Positions 2,073 to 8,603 of a stretch of 35,701 bases of DNA are shown here, in pieces. Numbering within the stretch: position 1 is the stretch's first letter; each line of letters opens with the position of its first letter. This DNA is from Paramuribaculum sp. GTDB taxonomy: Bacteria > Bacteroidota > Bacteroidia > Bacteroidales > Muribaculaceae. The DNA lies in assembly GCA_029060545.1 (NCBI GenBank), contig JAIDTT010000049.1, positions 1-35,701 of the forward strand, read 5' to 3'. Under the pieces are notes generated by a model. It saw only the letters and a list, made by a program, of their open reading frames with translations, was not told where the DNA came from and did not search any database. The translations under genes were made by a program, and so were the position numbers.

Positions 2073-2291
2073 CTATATTGTGAGCAGTATTCTGCCTCCT
2101 TCCTTTACAAAGGTAGCGGGATTTCGGCAGACGGCTGCATAAACCTGTCTATCCGTCACAGGTCGGCCATCTACCCGAATATGTAGTCGCTCATTGTTGA
2201 TTATCTCGGCTATTCGCTGTGTAGTCATCCCATATCCTGAGGTGGCCAGCACATAAACCATCGCATCTTCCAATCGCATTTTAAGTCTCAT
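2073..2291 (-). CDS. Small HARE-type HTH protein, last gene of the retron operon
   Basis: A 72-residue protein that is almost entirely one winged-helix-like domain: an N-terminal helix (MRLEDAMVYVLATSG), a helix pair (MTTQRIAEIINNERL), a helix beginning TDRQVYAAVCRNP and a C-terminal strand pair (TFVKEGGRILLTI). This pattern fits the HARE-HTH family (HB1, ASXL, restriction endonuclease), which is linked to DNA binding in restriction and chromatin proteins. Its start overlaps the stop of the vWA gene by 4 bases, so it is probably translationally coupled. It could be a DNA-recognition subunit of the retron output complex or an operon-level regulator; which one cannot be told from sequence. Family assignment is by eye. 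Confidence 0.7.
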   Translation of the reverse strand: MRLKMRLEDAMVYVLATSGYGMTTQRIAEIINNERLHIRVDGRPVTDRQVYAAVCRNPATFVKEGGRILLTI

Positions 2292-3730
2292 AATATCATC
2301 TGTCTGTCAAAGTATTCATTAACTACGCCATCATTGCATAGATAGCGGTAATGGCATTCCTTAAGAAAATTAAAGCCATCCGGCATTTCATTGTTACGTT
2401 TGGCTGGATCATCCAATATGTCGAGTTGGTATGGTCGGGTATTAATCCCTAAGCCGTATAACTTCATACCCTCATTCCTGGCATTTTCAATGAGGGATGT
2501 GCTTTCTTTAGAAATATGACTCCAGATAAAGTCTGAGATGATGAGCAAATCTGCTCCTTTGAATGAATCAGCAAAGGACTGGTACTGTGGCATTGACCGC
2601 AACTTCTTGAAAATAAAATAAAAAAGTTTATTTTCATCGTTGCCGCCGCTGTAAGAATGAGACAGAAACGATAAAAATTTCTTTCGTTGCCATTGTAGAT
2701 CTTTAAGAATAAAGAACGAAAGATTATGGGAGTAGTTGATCATACATATAGGTCTTTTATCTCGCTGCGCTACTATAGCAACGGAGAGCGCCAGTGTCTT
2801 GGCCGTCACTTCCGGTTGGCCTTCCATTGAGCCACTTGTATCAACGCATATATAGATTGGGCCGGATTTATCATTTGCGGGCTTGCAGGAACGGGAGGCG
2901 GATGAAAACAGTTGAAGCCGCTTTTGAACATACCGTTGATAAAACAGATTCTCTGTAGTGTTTGCTCCCAACATAACCAACTCGGATGGTAATAGACTAT
3001 TGAGATCATTGCCTGTAGTTACGCCACTTATGTCACTGCGGGAAGCAGACTGAAATTTGCCTGAAATCTCATGAGCAGTGCCGCCGCTTCGGCCGATTTT
3101 CTTGGCAAGATCAACGATAACAGGGTCGAGTTGAAGAAGATAATCTGCGTCAGCCCGATGACTATCTGTCCGCATCCCGGGTGAATTACCTCGCGATGAA
3201 TCAGCATAGTGTTGAATTGCATCCGGAAGCGCACCATGTATTTTTTCCAGGCTGTTGGTCATATCCGTAATACCCGATTCTATATACACATCACCTTCGT
3301 CGGATATCAGCTCTTCTCCATCATCATCACCAAGCGGTATAGGCTTGTCTGAATCTCCTGCTTTAAGATTCATAGATCTGGCTTTACGGTTCTTTTCTTC
3401 AATGCTTAATGGGAAAAGGTGATTGGCGAGCCACGAGTTAAGAAAATCTTCCTTTTTACCGGTTCGCTTTTCTTCATTTTTCCAGTCATCGGGACTTAGG
3501 GAGTCGATAAAATTACTTATAACTGCAACTGAATAATTTTTCCAAAACAAGTCATCCTCCACGACACAATAAAATCGCGAGTCGCATACAATATCCCGGA
3601 TCATCTGATATACAGGGATTCGGGCTGCTCTCATTTTACTGATTAAATCAAGCATTATCACGCCATCTTTGGTAGTAGTGACGATACTTACCGCTCTGCG
3701 CAGATATGCAAGATGCCTCTTTCTCATCAC
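2288..3730 (-). CDS. vWA-domain protein (ViaA-like partner of the MoxR ATPase)
   Basis: A 480-residue protein. The N-terminal half is helical and charged with no domain I recognise, including an acidic stretch around residues 134–150. The C-terminal half is a von Willebrand A domain with a metal-ion-dependent adhesion site: DTSGSM at 297–302, a conserved Thr near 309 and an Asp at 400 in LLIISDFIW. This layout (unknown N-terminus, C-terminal vWA) is like ViaA, the partner of the MoxR-type ATPase RavA in enterobacteria, and the next upstream gene here is a RavA-like MoxR protein overlapping by 4 bases. By analogy it is the adaptor or target-binding partner of the ATPase. MoxR–vWA pairs recur in bacterial conflict systems, and here the pair is inside a retron operon. 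Confidence 0.88.
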   Translation of the reverse strand: MMRKRHLAYLRRAVSIVTTTKDGVIMLDLISKMRAARIPVYQMIRDIVCDSRFYCVVEDDLFWKNYSVAVISNFIDSLSPDDWKNEEKRTGKKEDFLNSWLANHLFPLSIEEKNRKARSMNLKAGDSDKPIPLGDDDGEELISDEGDVYIESGITDMTNSLEKIHGALPDAIQHYADSSRGNSPGMRTDSHRADADYLLQLDPVIVDLAKKIGRSGGTAHEISGKFQSASRSDISGVTTGNDLNSLLPSELVMLGANTTENLFYQRYVQKRLQLFSSASRSCKPANDKSGPIYICVDTSGSMEGQPEVTAKTLALSVAIVAQRDKRPICMINYSHNLSFFILKDLQWQRKKFLSFLSHSYSGGNDENKLFYFIFKKLRSMPQYQSFADSFKGADLLIISDFIWSHISKESTSLIENARNEGMKLYGLGINTRPYQLDILDDPAKRNNEMPDGFNFLKECHYRYLCNDGVVNEYFDRQMIL

Positions 3731-5142
3731 ATTAAATCTATTCTTGTCTTATAGACGGCAACGACCTCTTTAATAGGCTTATATAAATCGGAACCGACAA
3801 TAAAAAGATTATGATTCATTTCAATATACAGACGATTTGCAATTCCGTCAATGGTATCACCAATCTCTGCCATAAAGTCTTTACTTAACTGCTTGTCACA
3901 TTCTGTACGCAGAAAATAATTATAGTTGTTGATACAGATTACTCCATCTTTTACAAATCTCATCACGAACTGGCCCCGTGAACGAAGCATCAGTATACTA
4001 TCCGTGGTTTCCGACCCGAAGAACACATCATCGGGAGACGACTGCATACGCTGATAATCCTTTATCTTGATTTTCAATGGGCTGTCATCACATTTAATAA
4101 TATAATGCACTTGATCGGGCGAGTATAACCGTATGTCGTTTTTATCTAAATTGACGTGCCGTTTGTAACTTTTGTACTGCTCGAGTATGCTACCGAATAA
4201 TGTAGCCACCATAGTTTCCGCAATAATCTGTCGGATCACAATAATCGACGACTCATCACTCCAAAGCATATGAGATAATATAAGTACGTCTGATAGACCT
4301 ATCTCATTTCGTTCATTAAGATATGCCGACATTTTCATAACTCCGAAAGCCTTTTTCCAGCGTCGGTCGGAGACATAATACTTCAGATTACCGGGATCAG
4401 GAGCACCGGTTACAACATCTATTGCATTTACTTTATCATTAAGTTTTTTTCTTATTGTATAAAGGATCTCAAGAATATCATTAGGAACAGCGACTTTACT
4501 ACTTTCAGACTGTATTGACAGAAACTCATCGTGAGTCAACGGTTGATATTCTACTATCGGTAAACTGGAATCAGGCGCAGATAGTAATCTGAAAAAATTT
4601 GTTTTTTGAGTTATGGGGTTTACAACGTATCGCAACAGAAATCGATCCCAAAGGGCTTCAAGTCCCTCATCTTTTGCCGGAAGTTCATTGGAGGCGGCTA
4701 TTATTCCTTTGAGCGGAAGTTGTAATTCTTGATTACCATTGAGATATATCTTCTCGTTGAGAACAGTAAGGAGCGAATTCTGAATCGCAGGTCCCGCTTT
4801 CCAGATCTCATCCAGGAAAACTACCTCTGCATCAGGCAGAAAACCTGCCGTAACCCGCTCATAACAATCCTCATCCTTGAGTTTGGATATGCTCACCGGG
4901 CCGAATATCTCGTCGGGGGTAGAGAAGCGCGACATCAGGTATTCAAATACTATCGCATGATTAAACGCCTTTTTCAATCGTCGGGCAATCATTGATTTGC
5001 CGACACCCGGCAATCCAAGGAGAAAAATACTCTCTCCGGCAAGAGCACTGAGCAGACTTAGTGCAAGAGCCTCGTCGCGCTCAAAAGTGCCTTGCTTCAT
5101 CCCTGATAAAATTGCCGCTATTCTATCTCTGATGCCTGTCAT
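3727..5142 (-). CDS. MoxR/RavA-like AAA+ ATPase
   Basis: A 471-residue AAA+ ATPase. Walker A is GLPGVGKS (43–50), Walker B VVFLDE (107–112), sensor 1 lies in IIAASNELP (147–155) and an arginine-finger region is WDRFLLR (165–171). The segment SRFSTPDEIFGPVSI between the Walker motifs is characteristic of the MoxR/RavA group. The C-terminal 200 residues, which may bind partners, match nothing I recognise. The gene overlaps the vWA gene downstream and the hydrolase gene upstream by 4 bases each, implying stoichiometric co-translation. The family remodels protein complexes with a vWA partner; in this setting it probably activates or delivers an effector once the retron senses infection. That role is inference. 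Confidence 0.92.
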   Translation of the reverse strand: MTGIRDRIAAILSGMKQGTFERDEALALSLLSALAGESIFLLGLPGVGKSMIARRLKKAFNHAIVFEYLMSRFSTPDEIFGPVSISKLKDEDCYERVTAGFLPDAEVVFLDEIWKAGPAIQNSLLTVLNEKIYLNGNQELQLPLKGIIAASNELPAKDEGLEALWDRFLLRYVVNPITQKTNFFRLLSAPDSSLPIVEYQPLTHDEFLSIQSESSKVAVPNDILEILYTIRKKLNDKVNAIDVVTGAPDPGNLKYYVSDRRWKKAFGVMKMSAYLNERNEIGLSDVLILSHMLWSDESSIIVIRQIIAETMVATLFGSILEQYKSYKRHVNLDKNDIRLYSPDQVHYIIKCDDSPLKIKIKDYQRMQSSPDDVFFGSETTDSILMLRSRGQFVMRFVKDGVICINNYNYFLRTECDKQLSKDFMAEIGDTIDGIANRLYIEMNHNLFIVGSDLYKPIKEVVAVYKTRIDLM

Positions 5143-6071
5143 CGGTCTCTGTTAACAATAATATTATTATTGATATAAAATTGACCCTCGGTAACTTGTA
5201 CTCCCCCTGCACCATATATCTCTACCGAAGGGGTCCGGCAGTATCGATTACCATACACGAGTTGTACAGTCTCATCGTCCGTTCCGTCGGAAAGGGTAGG
5301 AAAATGTAAGTCAATGTCGCGACCGTCGTAGTGCTTCTTGCCCTGATATTCACGCACAATTTCTTCGTACCACTTTCGACCGATGCCCTTCTTATATATT
5401 TTATAGGCATTCTCATAGTTGTCCATATCACCGATGAAACCGATCTTGCCCGATGTAATCGATTCAAACGGGAGGTATACTCTGAGAGAGAAATCAGGCG
5501 ACTTCAGCCATTCGATTATGGGAATAAGAATATCGTTAATCACTTGCTCCGTGAGACGATGGCCGCCAGCAAACGTAGTCCAATAAAAATAGCGTTCGCA
5601 ATACTCGTCGCGACAGTCGCATACCTCATCCGCATCGCCAAAGAGTCCGATTACCGACTCCGGTGCTGAGTCATCTACACACTCGAGATTAGCTTCCATT
5701 TCCTCGAATTCATGACATAGCGTTTCCGTGACCATATAGGACTCAGCTCCATCTTCTCTTTTTGAAAAAAATTGCAGCTCCTTACCCTCATTCTCTTCAA
5801 GAAGTTGCGACACATGAAATGCCGGATTGACAAGGATTCGTCGATAGCCTTTCATCTGCGAGGCGTACATGGCGCCCATTGAAGTACCAATTACGATTGT
5901 ATTGTCGGAATGATACTCCCCGGCGAGACTCAGTAGAAGCTGAAGAGCCTTGATCGGGCTGACCGGAATGTCGGGGGTAATCACGTTGTCGAGTGGTAAC
6001 AGTTTTCGCAACAAAGCGGCTGTGTTGGCCTGTCCGGATGACGATAGGCCGTGGAGATAAATGATATTCAT
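5139..6071 (-). CDS. α/β-hydrolase, YqiA/UPF0227-like, with C-terminal extension
   Basis: A 310-residue protein. Residues 1–190 form a compact α/β-hydrolase like the YqiA/UPF0227 esterases: start MNIIYLHGLSSSG, nucleophile elbow GTSMG with Ser64, an acid at Asp146 or Asp148 in LFGDADEV and His171 in FAGGHRL, so the catalytic triad looks intact. Residues 195–310 are an extra domain with no match I know, rich in aromatic and acidic residues. It starts 5 bases after the RT stop and overlaps the MoxR gene by 4 bases. In a retron it is the best candidate for the toxic effector (lipid, ester or small-molecule hydrolysis), but the substrate is unknown. There is no signal peptide, so it should be cytoplasmic. 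Confidence 0.85.
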   Translation of the reverse strand: MNIIYLHGLSSSGQANTAALLRKLLPLDNVITPDIPVSPIKALQLLLSLAGEYHSDNTIVIGTSMGAMYASQMKGYRRILVNPAFHVSQLLEENEGKELQFFSKREDGAESYMVTETLCHEFEEMEANLECVDDSAPESVIGLFGDADEVCDCRDEYCERYFYWTTFAGGHRLTEQVINDILIPIIEWLKSPDFSLRVYLPFESITSGKIGFIGDMDNYENAYKIYKKGIGRKWYEEIVREYQGKKHYDGRDIDLHFPTLSDGTDDETVQLVYGNRYCRTPSVEIYGAGGVQVTEGQFYINNNIIVNRDR

Positions 6072-6076
6072 ATTGT

Positions 6077-7147
6077 TTATGTGTTAGGGGTTGAGTTTTG
6101 CTTTTCTTTCCACTGAAGGTGCGTAAATTTGCGCTTTAGCGTACGATAGGTAGAATCTTCCTTACCCTTGATCATTTCAAGGTAATTGATCTTGCCGTCA
6201 ATGACATTGGCAAGTCTCTTATTCGCACTCATATCGAAATCGTTGGTGAAGATATTCTGCGCTTTGGCATATCCATATTTGTCCCATAGATGAAGTAATA
6301 CCCGGAGTTGCTTTACATAAGTGCGGCTTACATTGACTTTGTCACTGATCACTATACCTGTTACTTCGCGGCGTACGCCCGGAACATATGTTTTCGTCTT
6401 CTTGTCGTTGATCCTAAGACCATGATCGCTCACTACCTTCTCAATCTTCGTTTGCCAATATGGAGTAATCCTCCTTATCGGTTTATGATGGCTGAATGTC
6501 ATATCATCAGCATAGCGCGAGTAACGGGCACCCATTCGTTCGGCCAGCCGAGCCATTTCCTCATCAAGTACTTTCAGCACGATGTTGGACAGCACCGGAG
6601 ATGTCGGTGCGCCTTGCGGCAGTACTTCAATACCGGCAGCATCAGGTACGGTGCATAGCCGGCATATAATATTGATAGCCTCTCTGCTCTGAATCTTATC
6701 GCCCAACTCACGAATTAGCGCCCGGCGAACCATTGTCTTCGTAATACACGGAAAAAAGTTTTGAAGGTCAATGTTGTAGATACATGTTTGCCCTACATGC
6801 ATGATTGCATTGTCTTTCACACTCTTTCCTATAACGAAGCCTGTAGCATTAGGCGAAGGCTCGAAGATAGATTGAAGTAGTATGTTGATAGCCGATTGAA
6901 TCCCTTTCAGTGGTTTTACCGGTGCACTGATTTTACGGACCCCGCCTGACTTTTTAGGTATCTCGAAATCGACGTATCCTTTGGCTCGGGTTCTGACATA
7001 AGCGAAATGCATGAGTTTCCGACCCGAGAGTGGCTCCGCCAGACTCCACTCCCCAAGAATAGGAGCAATGAAATTCAAGGTATCGAATAACTCGGTTCTG
7101 GATGAGATTGTGATATCTTTGAGGTATTCCGTTATTTTGTCTCGCAT
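6077..7147 (-). CDS. Retron reverse transcriptase
   Basis: A 356-residue RNA-directed DNA polymerase with retron signatures. Asp127 in YNIDLQNFFP is the first catalytic Asp, QGAPTSP (178–184) is motif 4, and YADD (212–215) in RYADDMTFS carries the other two catalytic Asp residues. The retron-specific NAxxH motif is present as NAIMH (113–117) and the VTG triplet of the Y region as VTGIVIS (262–268). There is no maturase or endonuclease domain, and motif 4 is not the IGxxxSQ form of diversity-generating retroelements. The ATG at 7147 follows an A-rich leader typical of Bacteroidetes. A structured ncRNA candidate ends about 100 bases upstream on the same strand. It should make msDNA from that RNA and bind it as the sensor half of the system. 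Confidence 0.95.
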   Translation of the reverse strand: MRDKITEYLKDITISSRTELFDTLNFIAPILGEWSLAEPLSGRKLMHFAYVRTRAKGYVDFEIPKKSGGVRKISAPVKPLKGIQSAINILLQSIFEPSPNATGFVIGKSVKDNAIMHVGQTCIYNIDLQNFFPCITKTMVRRALIRELGDKIQSREAINIICRLCTVPDAAGIEVLPQGAPTSPVLSNIVLKVLDEEMARLAERMGARYSRYADDMTFSHHKPIRRITPYWQTKIEKVVSDHGLRINDKKTKTYVPGVRREVTGIVISDKVNVSRTYVKQLRVLLHLWDKYGYAKAQNIFTNDFDMSANKRLANVIDGKINYLEMIKGKEDSTYRTLKRKFTHLQWKEKQNSTPNT

Positions 7148-7173
7148 CGTTTTTTTTGAAAAGTTAGCGATGG

Positions 7174-7215
7174 CAAAAATAGAGGTGATGTGTGAAAAGT
7201 CGTTTCATATATGAA
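7174..7215 (-). promoter_or_regulatory. RT operon promoter with shared operator dyad (site B)
   Basis: On the minus strand the −7 box TATTTTTG lies at 7174–7181. Upstream, a dyad at 7190–7210 reads ATATGAAA-N5-TTTCACAC. The whole 42-base unit has the same spacing as the units before the ncRNA (7560–7601) and the WYL gene (8562–8603). No TTTG −33 element is present; the dyad occupies that place. A second palindrome (TTCATATATGAA) overlaps its upstream half. Confidence 0.75.
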
Positions 7216-7250
7216 TTTTATTTTCTGATCTTTTTTACAGATGGATACTA

Positions 7251-7290
7251 TATAAAAAATGATGACGCACTCCGTATTGGAGCCGCCATC
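7251..7290 (-). terminator. Terminator of the retron ncRNA
   Basis: On the minus strand GATGGCGGCTCC (from 7290) pairs with GGAGTGCGTCATC (to 7261) through 12 base pairs, two of them G·U, with one bulged G and an AATAC loop. The run ATTTTTTATA follows. It sits just past the a2 repeat and separates the ncRNA from the RT promoter. Confidence 0.75.
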
Positions 7291-7553
7291 ATATTTAAGC
7301 AACGGTGATACTTTCGTGTGCGCCGGATGGTCGAGGCATCGGCAATGTGAGTTGTGAACGAAGGAGTGCACGCCACATCACCTAAAACGAAGTGACGGTG
7401 ATGATTGGTGCACGACTGGAGTGAACAGCTTGCAGAGCCTATGCCGAGTAATAAACTTTGTGGAGCGTTACTGTGGAAGAAACGAAGTCTGCCGAATACA
7501 ACAGACAGGTTGCAAAGTTCGTGCCGTTGCTTTCAATGTTCTCTGTCGTTTAA
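7252..7553 (-). ncRNA. Candidate retron msr–msd RNA
   Basis: Non-coding transcript of about 300 bases upstream of the RT, on the same strand. Evidence by eye: a consensus −7 box at 7560–7567 gives a start near 7553. A 9-base element AAGCAACGG (7524–7532) near the 5′ end is perfectly complementary to CCGTTGCTT (7297–7305) near the 3′ end, the position and size expected for retron a1/a2. A hairpin at 7487–7506 has an 8-bp stem and a TATT loop, itself inside a 7-bp stem formed by 7513–7519 and 7454–7460, fitting the msr. A long hairpin at 7366–7413 (GTGCAC arms, then CATCACC with GGTGATG, 14-base loop) inside GGCATAGGC (7437–7445) and GCCGATGCC (7335–7343) fits the reverse-transcribed msd. The branch G is not assigned; an AGC within a1 is one candidate. 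Exact ends are inferred. Confidence 0.8.
7297..7532. repeat. a1/a2 inverted repeat of the retron
   Basis: The plus strand reads AAGCAACGG at 7297–7305 and CCGTTGCTT at 7524–7532. These 9-base arms bracket all the predicted internal hairpins and lie inside the promoter and terminator of the ncRNA. A few more pairs with bulges may extend the stem outward (CATT with AATATG). Confidence 0.75.
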
Positions 7554-7559
7554 TAAACG

Positions 7560-7601
7560 CAAAGTTAGATAGTATATATGAAAATTCGTTTCATATATGA
7601 A
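7560..7601 (-). promoter_or_regulatory. ncRNA promoter with shared operator dyad (site C)
   Basis: The minus-strand −7 box is TAACTTTG (7560–7567). The dyad at 7576–7596 is the most symmetrical of the three, ATATGAAA-N5-TTTCATAT, and overlaps a perfect 14-bp palindrome (TTTCATATATGAAA, 7589–7602). Spacing from dyad to −7 box is identical to that in site B before the RT. Confidence 0.8.
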
Positions 7602-7622
7602 AGCTGATTGCAGAAAATATTG

Positions 7623-8540
7623 TTATATCCGATACAAGGCTGCCAAAGCATTGGATTTCTCAGTCAGAATATTGCGCAACCATATAGGAGCAAGCACTTC
7701 TATGTCGTCACCATGGCTCATCAGTTCCTGCACGAAGTCATAAGCCGGAGAGAGGAAGAACTCAAAAACACTATAGTCCTCAGTAACCTCCAATTCCTCC
7801 TGTGAGTGATGGAATGGCAACGAACGCAGATATTTCGGAAACTCCCGAAAACACTTGATTACTACGCGCGTAGGCATAGAATAGCCATCGGAGCATATTC
7901 CGTAGAAGTTTGCAAAAAACTCTTTGGCAGAAAAATCAGATGGATACTCGAATGTGTCGTCGGACAGAGATAAATCAGTAATACGGTCAAGAGCGAAAAT
8001 CAAGCGTTTTCTATCATTCATCGATTGTCCAAGCACATACCATCTGCGTTTGAACATTTTAAGACACAGTGGCTCGAGTTCCCGATCTTTGTCATTAGTC
8101 TTTGACGAGTGAAAGGATGTGTAGCGGAAGATGATACGACGATTTTCCTTCAGAGCCTGCGAGATAATCGGTAACCAGTCGCGGCCGCCTGGAACCGGTT
8201 CAAGCACAATCTTGTCAGCTATACTCTTGTTATCAAGCAGCAGGGATTCGGTAGCAATAGAGTCCTTAAGCCAATTTATCACCTCATTTGCTTCAATTTC
8301 ATCCTTATTGGCGATAAAATACTGACTGTTTTCTCGCATTGAAGTACACTGGATATCGACCCCCAACTCTGTAAGAATTGCCTGACGGTGATTATGGAAT
8401 GTGCGTTTCGACAATTCCGTGCCTTTATAGTTCAGCGAGGAATTGTCCCATTTTTCACTGATCTCCCTGAATGTGATCTTGCCGGCATCCAATATAGTAT
8501 TGATAAGCCATATATACTTACGAAGTGTAGAGTCTGCCAT
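7623..8540 (-). CDS. WYL-domain transcriptional regulator of the retron locus
   Basis: A 305-residue regulator. Residues 1–60 form an N-terminal winged HTH. The central part is a WYL domain (IISQALKENRRIIFRYTS, LEPLCLKMFKRRWYVLGQ, then RLIFALDRI), and the C-terminal part fits the WCX extension. WYL proteins are common regulators of phage-defence loci and may sense nucleic acid or nucleotides. I start at the ATG at 8540: an in-frame TTG at 8564 lies inside the −7 promoter box (TATCTTTG, 8562–8569) and cannot be transcribed from it. It is divergent in position but not in direction: WYL, ncRNA and RT all read leftward. Its own promoter and the two downstream promoters share a dyad, suggesting autoregulation plus control of the retron. 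Confidence 0.9.
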   Translation of the reverse strand: MADSTLRKYIWLINTILDAGKITFREISEKWDNSSLNYKGTELSKRTFHNHRQAILTELGVDIQCTSMRENSQYFIANKDEIEANEVINWLKDSIATESLLLDNKSIADKIVLEPVPGGRDWLPIISQALKENRRIIFRYTSFHSSKTNDKDRELEPLCLKMFKRRWYVLGQSMNDRKRLIFALDRITDLSLSDDTFEYPSDFSAKEFFANFYGICSDGYSMPTRVVIKCFREFPKYLRSLPFHHSQEELEVTEDYSVFEFFLSPAYDFVQELMSHGDDIEVLAPIWLRNILTEKSNALAALYRI

Positions 8541-8561
8541 ATCTTTGATGATTAATGACTG

Positions 8562-8603
8562 CAAAGATATATATAAAGTATGAAAAACGACTTCACACTT
8601 AAC
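8562..8603 (-). promoter_or_regulatory. WYL gene promoter with shared operator dyad (site A)
   Basis: The −7 box TATCTTTG (8562–8569, minus strand) is preceded by a dyad at 8578–8598 reading GTGTGAAG-N5-TTTCATAC. Together with sites B and C the half-site consensus is RTRTGAAR / TTTCAYAY with a 5-base centre. The location upstream of the regulator's own start suggests autoregulation. Confidence 0.75.

Follow-up and report, generated by a model that had tools for sequence, protein, structure and literature searches.

The window analysed here is a stretch of 35,701 nucleotides of Paramuribaculum sp. (contig JAIDTT010000049.1; Muribaculaceae). Its source genome (G000) comprises 2.1 Mb in 109 contigs, and the locus in question lies on C54 (handles with G, L and C denote genomes, loci and contigs of this analysis). 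The locus is a predicted retron, i.e. a reverse transcriptase (RT) with a structured non-coding RNA (ncRNA), followed by a hydrolase that is the probable effector and by three further genes. All features lie on the minus strand, in the order WYL regulator, ncRNA, RT, hydrolase, MoxR ATPase, von Willebrand factor A (vWA) protein and small helix-turn-helix (HTH) protein:

7623..8564, minus strand: WYL-domain transcription regulator, first gene of the cassette (Pfam WYL 3.3e-13, WCX 5.4e-7)
7577..7595, minus strand: operator candidate, inverted repeat TATGAAACGAATTTTCATA, upstream of the ncRNA (1 mismatch to TATGAAACGAYTTTTCAYA)
7297..7533, minus strand: predicted retron ncRNA (msr-msd), based on inverted repeat, profile search, alignment and covariation
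7252..7296, minus strand: terminator-like hairpin and T-run just after the ncRNA (arms 7255-7267 / 7284-7296; terminator reading by eye)
7191..7209, minus strand: second operator copy, between ncRNA and RT (0 mismatches to TATGAAACGAYTTTTCAYA)
6077..7147, minus strand: retron RT, 356 amino acids, without a fused effector domain (RVT_1 8.9e-19; motifs)
5139..6071, minus strand: UPF0227/YqiA-like alpha/beta-hydrolase with an extra C-terminal domain (UPF0227 4.2e-11)
3727..5142, minus strand: MoxR AAA+ ATPase, RavA-like (bpMoxR 1.4e-51; Walker A and B)
2288..3730, minus strand: ViaA-like vWA protein (DTSGS, the metal ion-dependent adhesion site motif; ViaA model 6.3e-30)
2073..2291, minus strand: winged-HTH protein of 72 amino acids (HARE-like), overlapping the end of the vWA gene (homologues; HARE-HTH matches)

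The RT and hydrolase genes are separated by a 5-base gap, and the hydrolase/MoxR, MoxR/vWA and vWA/HTH junctions are 4-base stop/start overlaps. The five genes therefore look translationally coupled. A preliminary description of this DNA had called them 'fused by 4–5 base junctions'; the spacing was right, but the genes are separate, and a fused polyprotein is ruled out. The WYL regulator leads the locus, as described there. WYL–ncRNA–RT–hydrolase forms a conserved cassette across related loci. These loci, G074 and L152 among them, rule out an arrangement unique to one strain and bear out the expectation of a conserved neighbourhood.

The RT carries NAIMH at residue 113, QGAPTSP at 178, YADD at 212 and VTG at 262, exactly the four signatures read earlier from the sequence. 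NAxxH, YADD and VTG are motif names used for the recognition of retron RTs. The PADLOC retron RT models reached up to 313.8 bits (RT residues 42-349), and the non-retron models 82.4 (group II intron), 55.4 (Drt2) and 53.5 bits (Drt3a). In a PDB search, the top matches were the retron RTs Ec67 (3.6e-33) and Ec86 (1.9e-27). The best PADLOC model was that of type XI, in which RT and protease form one gene. This type was rejected for the missing protease: the model covers RT residues 42-349 with profile positions 22-325 of 510, and the protein stops at 356.

An RT tree was built from 44 RTs from loci of this analysis and rooted on Ec73, with retron RTs throughout and with the E. coli TIR-linked RT as a row of 194 amino acids only. 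The window fell into a clade of seven (99/95) together with G241, G239, G057, G161, G081 and G074, as sister to the other six. L001 and a lone RT (G226) come next, and a different branch (96/99) unites the Ec67-family and TIR-linked RTs. One RT relative (57%) comes from a Muribaculaceae genome bin; the viral contigs searched held no relative of the RT or of the hydrolase.

The region between RT and WYL gene (7148-7622) harbours structured RNA (z = -4.95; 0 of 100 shuffles as stable), in agreement with the structured ncRNA of the preliminary description. Its conserved part (7297-7533, 237 nucleotides) was also more stable than all 200 shuffles (z = -3.37). It comprises an a1 arm (7524-7532), a conserved msr hairpin (~7487-7506), a long msd hairpin (~7335-7445) and an a2 arm (7297-7305). 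Relatives share a conserved block of ~250 nucleotides immediately before the RT gene. When seven sequences (window, G074, G239, G081, G241, G057 and L001) were made into a profile, this also matched the corresponding site of G161 (3e-83) and G226 (6e-44); weak matches to that site were obtained for G267 (1.5e-7), G754 (3.4e-4) and G684 (0.0068). All seven members of the RT clade and the RT relatives at 57-58% have the ncRNA directly upstream of the RT. Rfam gave 0 matches in the window.

Nine of the 12 loci with a profile match were aligned; the weakest (L123, L124 and L132) were left out, and L152 stood outside this set. The consensus fold has 70 pairs, and in 23 of them both sides changed (33 cells), compared with a mean of 7.1 in the shuffles, none of which reached 23 (0 of 500). 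With partners shifted by 1-3 columns, at most 5 such pairs were found. The shuffles ignore relatedness and the fold came from the same alignment as the test; the slid control preserves relatedness. Of the 14 pairs in the a1/a2 stem, 6 covary. L152 (1375-1661) has a 38-nucleotide tandem duplication at the tip of the msd hairpin in an otherwise conserved ncRNA.

Judged from the RT motifs, the model scores, the tree and the covarying ncRNA with its a1/a2 arms directly upstream, the identification as a retron holds, as had been proposed from the first reading.

The hydrolase matched the UPF0227 Pfam model with 43.5 bits (cut-off 21), and all six aligned members match it. The protein has an alpha/beta core (~residues 1-190) and an extra C-terminal domain of ~120 residues (~190-310). 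The motifs GTSMG, GDADE and GGH are present, and Ser64, Asp148 and His171 are invariant in the six aligned sequences (window and five relatives). These residues are likely the catalytic triad, and the earlier view of a triad-intact alpha/beta-hydrolase stands.

Hydrolase matches of any kind were found in 89 of the 297 genomes of the family draw; full-length matches were found in six (G000, G161, G239, G081, G074 and G241). All six full-length hydrolases, that of the window included, lie directly behind an RT, although the contig of G161 holds only the last 59 matching residues of it. The same arrangement is seen in L152. None of the 392 further genomes in an order-wide draw showed the C-terminal domain. 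The ratio of nonsynonymous to synonymous substitutions (dN/dS) of the hydrolase was 0.07-0.18, including pairs with loci that lack the downstream genes (own Nei-Gojobori script; dS measurable in 9 of 15 pairs; L152 outside the set). The hydrolase stayed under purifying selection. In some pairs it diverges faster than the RT, with 69% vs 85% identity between G074 and G239 and 84% vs 91% between G074 and G081.

The matches limited to ~residues 1-190 mostly belong to housekeeping-type singletons (12 neighbourhoods by eye), and a general defence role of this enzyme was rejected as an explanation. Some further relatives were noted. G087 of the family draw has the C-terminal domain as a separate open reading frame (ORF) near a contig edge (L155 177-512, 49% identity). 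A partial-length hydrolase relative lies beside two DUF262-like genes in L043. L156 has a 33% match across 54 residues within a 362-amino-acid ORF, and L157 carries the N-terminal part only.

The three genes behind the hydrolase were recognised correctly in outline. The MoxR protein has Walker A and B motifs and a bpMoxR domain (174.9 bits, cut-off 27). It scored 335.7 bits against the NCBIfam RavA model, below the equivalog cut-off of 681, and matched RavA structures in the PDB (2.3e-80) with residues 5-312; the C-terminal third lies outside the match. The vWA protein is ViaA-like as described (104.8 bits against the ViaA model of NCBIfam, below the equivalog cut-off of 500) and had no PDB match up to E 1. 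The small protein had been called a HARE-type HTH. Six of six homologues match HARE-HTH (best E 1.1e-4), but the window protein itself remains below the Pfam cut-off (15.4 vs 25.9 bits). Its structure was predicted as three helices and two strands at low confidence (predicted local distance difference test, pLDDT, 49), too poor for a fold search. Homologues (53-86%) stand beside MoxR–vWA genes or their remnants in five other loci.

The MoxR–vWA–HTH trio is intact behind the hydrolase in the window and in G074, with identical 4-base-overlap junctions. L152, a scaffold from human faeces (Mexico) with an unverified 'Bacteriophage sp.' label and outside the RT tree, carries WYL, operator, ncRNA, RT, hydrolase and MoxR, and its record breaks off within vWA, of which the start is present. 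No working trio is found behind the intact hydrolase in four loci (G239, G241, G081 and G161). In G239, the beginning of MoxR survives as ~13 codons at the junction where it is expected (score 21.5, with 0 of 200 shuffles as high and 14.5 as their maximum), and the HTH tail can be made out by eye. G081 retains ~70 bases of the MoxR Walker-A region (23.5 vs a shuffled maximum of 16.5, 0 of 200). For G241 and G161, no trace of the trio was found by comparison with G074, as 42 and 125 of 200 shuffles scored as well; all these tests used single-base shuffles. In G057, the hydrolase, MoxR and vWA genes are broken, leaving an open HTH gene and pieces of vWA and hydrolase, while WYL, ncRNA, RT and HTH are still open.

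Hence, the MoxR, vWA and HTH genes are optional, and the hydrolase is the more constant partner. Given that the window branches as sister to the remaining six RT-clade members, an ancestral trio with several later losses is the simplest account; independent gains are possible at the loci without a trace.

Of 297 genomes, 34 held a MoxR relative at E 1e-30 or better. Within the stretches fetched, trio relatives without an RT occurred in G178 (vWA split into two ORFs), G103 and G141 (with the HTH), and MoxR–vWA pairs without an RT and without an HTH match in G080 and G280. The preliminary description had proposed a single output module of hydrolase and MoxR–vWA. The trio does follow the hydrolase in the window, G074 and L152 (as far as the record runs), but it is absent or broken in four hydrolase-intact loci. 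The single module is only partly supported, because the trio is optional and its relatives occur without an RT.

These RT-less relatives, and the persistence of the retron without the trio in the four loci, would also suit two independent systems on one transcript: a complete WYL–ncRNA–RT–hydrolase retron and a captured RavA-ViaA-like MoxR–vWA–HTH unit with its own job. We regard this as rather unlikely, though worth serious thought. The window and G074 share their overlap junctions, L152 has the same order as far as it runs, and these three loci have differing flanking genes (by eye). Moreover, the retron-linked MoxR proteins form a single clade (100/99), and trio remnants occur at the same site in three further loci.

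The roles of the partners could also be reversed, with the MoxR–vWA pair as the true executioner or sensor and the hydrolase as its regulator. MoxR–vWA pairs have been proposed as switches of conflict systems (PMC7159879, PMC10907252). In addition, MoxR (83%) and HTH (86%) are better conserved between the window and G074 than RT, hydrolase and vWA (70% each). This account is nevertheless very improbable. The trio was lost and the hydrolase kept in four loci, and the reverse, a lost hydrolase with an intact trio, was seen in none of the seven clade loci or L152.

The reading that we favour, and consider fairly probable, makes the hydrolase the effector of the retron and the ATPase part an optional accessory. 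The loss pattern, with the trio gone and the hydrolase kept, fits this. The RT would copy the msd hairpin into multicopy single-stranded DNA (msDNA). The RT-msDNA complex would bind the hydrolase and keep it off, probably via the extra C-terminal domain; that this domain is the binding site is a guess. The hydrolase would be freed once a phage protein altered or stripped the msDNA. This UPF0227-type esterase or thioesterase would then attack acyl-ester substrates in the host, be they lipids, acyl-CoA or acyl-proteins, halting growth ahead of phage production. An accessory role, most likely at the membrane or on the complex, would fall to the RavA/ViaA-like pair together with the small winged-HTH protein, which would tune release or delivery.

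In published retrons, msDNA–RT holds the effector (PMC13158370; PMC13405049, preprint), and by analogy it may restrain the hydrolase here. G057, with its broken hydrolase and open WYL, ncRNA and RT, fits RT-ncRNA as the restraining part. The trio is unlikely to restrain the hydrolase because the trio-less loci keep it intact. Phospholipid binding by RavA-ViaA at the inner membrane of E. coli (PMC9489729) agrees with an ester-cleaving partner but is no proof for this locus.

A bolder version is an msDNA-controlled, membrane-directed machine, in which the RavA-ViaA-like pair and a winged-HTH adaptor, possibly reading the msDNA, release or deliver a lipid- or acyl-ester-cleaving hydrolase. We put this forward tentatively and doubt it more than we believe it.

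Several points weigh against the hydrolase as effector with an ancestral accessory. RT relatives at 51-58% (L001, G226 and G754) keep the ncRNA without the hydrolase, so the RT group does not need it, and the hydrolase of G057 is broken. The UPF0227-type relatives elsewhere look mostly like the housekeeping singletons mentioned above. The C-terminal domain had no informative match (DUF2255 at E 0.11 in one of six), the single-sequence structure prediction of the hydrolase was too poor for a fold search (pLDDT 33), and a literature search on YqiA activity returned nothing. The PADLOC-DB models matched hydrolase, MoxR and vWA only weakly (E 0.0026 or worse). Finally, as G241 and G161 are without a trace, the ancestral presence of the trio is something we infer.

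A retron-derived cassette that now has a host function (stress or membrane control) instead of phage defence was also considered. Proteins like RavA-ViaA have been described in the context of stress and antibiotics (PMC9489729). However, the patchy presence (full-length hydrolase in 6 of 297 genomes), the differing flanks and the repeated gene loss are typical of defence genes, and immunity is the role described for retrons in general (PMC12548924). A host function is therefore improbable, if slightly less so than the reversed roles above.

The transcription of the locus may be controlled by the WYL protein. Its ORF (7623-8564) opens with TTG, and the start conserved among relatives is an ATG at 8540. 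The protein is 72-77% identical at the same position in G239, G074, G241 and G057 and also occurs in L152; that of G161 differs (39% identity). The TATGAAACGAYTTTTCAYA element had two matches in the window vs 0.00 expected. The operator candidate is present upstream of the ncRNA in G239, G074, G241 and G057 (0-1 mismatch) and in L152, and all five of these relatives carry the 72-77% identical WYL. With up to 4 mismatches allowed, it was not found in G081 (where the WYL side falls off the contig), G161, L001 and G226. At the second copy (7191..7209), five relatives have an alignment gap. Looser matches (4 mismatches) precede the WYL gene in G239 and G074, with matches of equal quality elsewhere in the loci, and a looser match was seen by eye at ~8579-8598 of the window. 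The terminator-like hairpin 3' of the ncRNA was found in the window only and is absent from the five relatives aligned; in the window, the ncRNA and the RT operon may accordingly be transcribed separately, both under WYL control.

By model score and structure database, the nearest RTs are those of retron types I-C (Ec67/Eco2), XI and XII, which likewise have the ncRNA upstream of the RT. The difference is in the effector: the PADLOC models of these types have it within the RT gene (Toprim, protease or TIR), whereas here the hydrolase is a separate gene. The Ec67 and TIR-linked RTs also occupy a separate tree branch. The hydrolase shares the alpha/beta-hydrolase core and Ser motif with UPF0227/YqiA esterases (PDB 9bi7, 4fle) but differs by its extra ~120-residue C-terminal domain and by its retron linkage. 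As in E. coli RavA-ViaA, the MoxR ATPase and the ViaA-like vWA protein are encoded by adjacent genes, but the scores below the equivalog cut-offs, the third gene for a small HTH protein and the retron context set the pair apart.

MoxR–vWA pairs are likewise part of ternary conflict systems (PMC7159879) and of systems linked to diversity-generating retroelements (DGRs). The latter pairs stand beside DGR RTs, some with an HTH gene (PMC10907252); the window RT is retron-type, unlike those. No VMAP or beta-propeller component of the ternary systems was found by Pfam in the locus proteins. PMC7159879 uses 'retron' once in its main text, in a passage on DGR RTs, and PMC10907252 does not contain the word.

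Retron-Sda1 (PMC12548924) is a precedent for retron effector replacement. It differs in its III-A1-type ncRNA and in a HipA-DUF3037 partner that works on its own. The type IX retron Kva2 (PMC13405049) combines a winged-helix protein and a toxic effector in one operon; its effector is a HEPN RNase, and the winged HTH of the window goes with MoxR–vWA, outside retrons too. A literature search for retrons with MoxR and vWA returned only PMC7159879. The literature searches made found no report of a retron with this combination of hydrolase and MoxR–vWA, but it may be a rare listed type; the only hydrolases mentioned in PMC13158370 are NAD hydrolases. There are 13 published retron types. The locus was filed as a retron and not as any numbered type, as its partner genes fit no retron effector of PADLOC-DB.

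Three loci with RT relatives at 51-58% (L001 5584-8696, L121 and L123) keep the ncRNA, weakly in L123, and lack the hydrolase. In one of them, an AAA_21 ATPase and a DUF4276 gene follow ~350 bases downstream; the other two are without an obvious adjoining effector. These neighbourhoods suggest effector exchange.

A second arrangement of Bacteroidota was seen in L125, L126, L127, L128, L136, L140, L087, L088, L090 and the plasmid record L142. Here a retron-type RT, in many cases extended at its C-terminus, precedes a protein of ~350-390 amino acids (longer in L088), one of ~200 and one of ~520-680, at times with WYL and helicase. The first of these three proteins is a HisKin-conflict protein (PF22561) in L125, the one tested. 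The last has a weak response-regulator match in L125 and is annotated as a response regulator in L142. In L129, L135 and L137, the RT has another C-terminal extension and precedes a protein of ~293 amino acids; that of L129, the one tested, had no Pfam match up to E 0.01.

Downstream of the cassette, the window has a gene for an extracytoplasmic function (ECF)-type sigma factor (215-721; Sigma70_r2 and r4_2), probably unrelated, and a 284-amino-acid protein (873-1727) without a Pfam match that is uracil-DNA-glycosylase-like by eye. A 51% homologue of the latter lies directly upstream of WYL-RT in G161 (L122 5567-6388).

The effectors named for retrons are nucleases, NAD hydrolases, transmembrane and cold-shock proteins, phosphoribosyltransferases and a HEPN RNase (PMC13158370, PMC13405049). 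A UPF0227-type hydrolase with its own C-terminal domain would add new chemistry to these. The contribution of MoxR–vWA to a toxin-like enzyme was left to experiment by the conflict-system proposals, and the loci compared here, with the trio complete, the trio lost or the hydrolase lost, supply natural genotypes for it. Gut bacteria of the Muribaculaceae type are thereby brought into retron work. If the membrane-directed machine were true, this retron would have an ATP-driven output aimed at the membrane in place of a nuclease, NADase or RNase, and its ATPase part would have been discarded repeatedly to leave a simpler, hydrolase-only retron.

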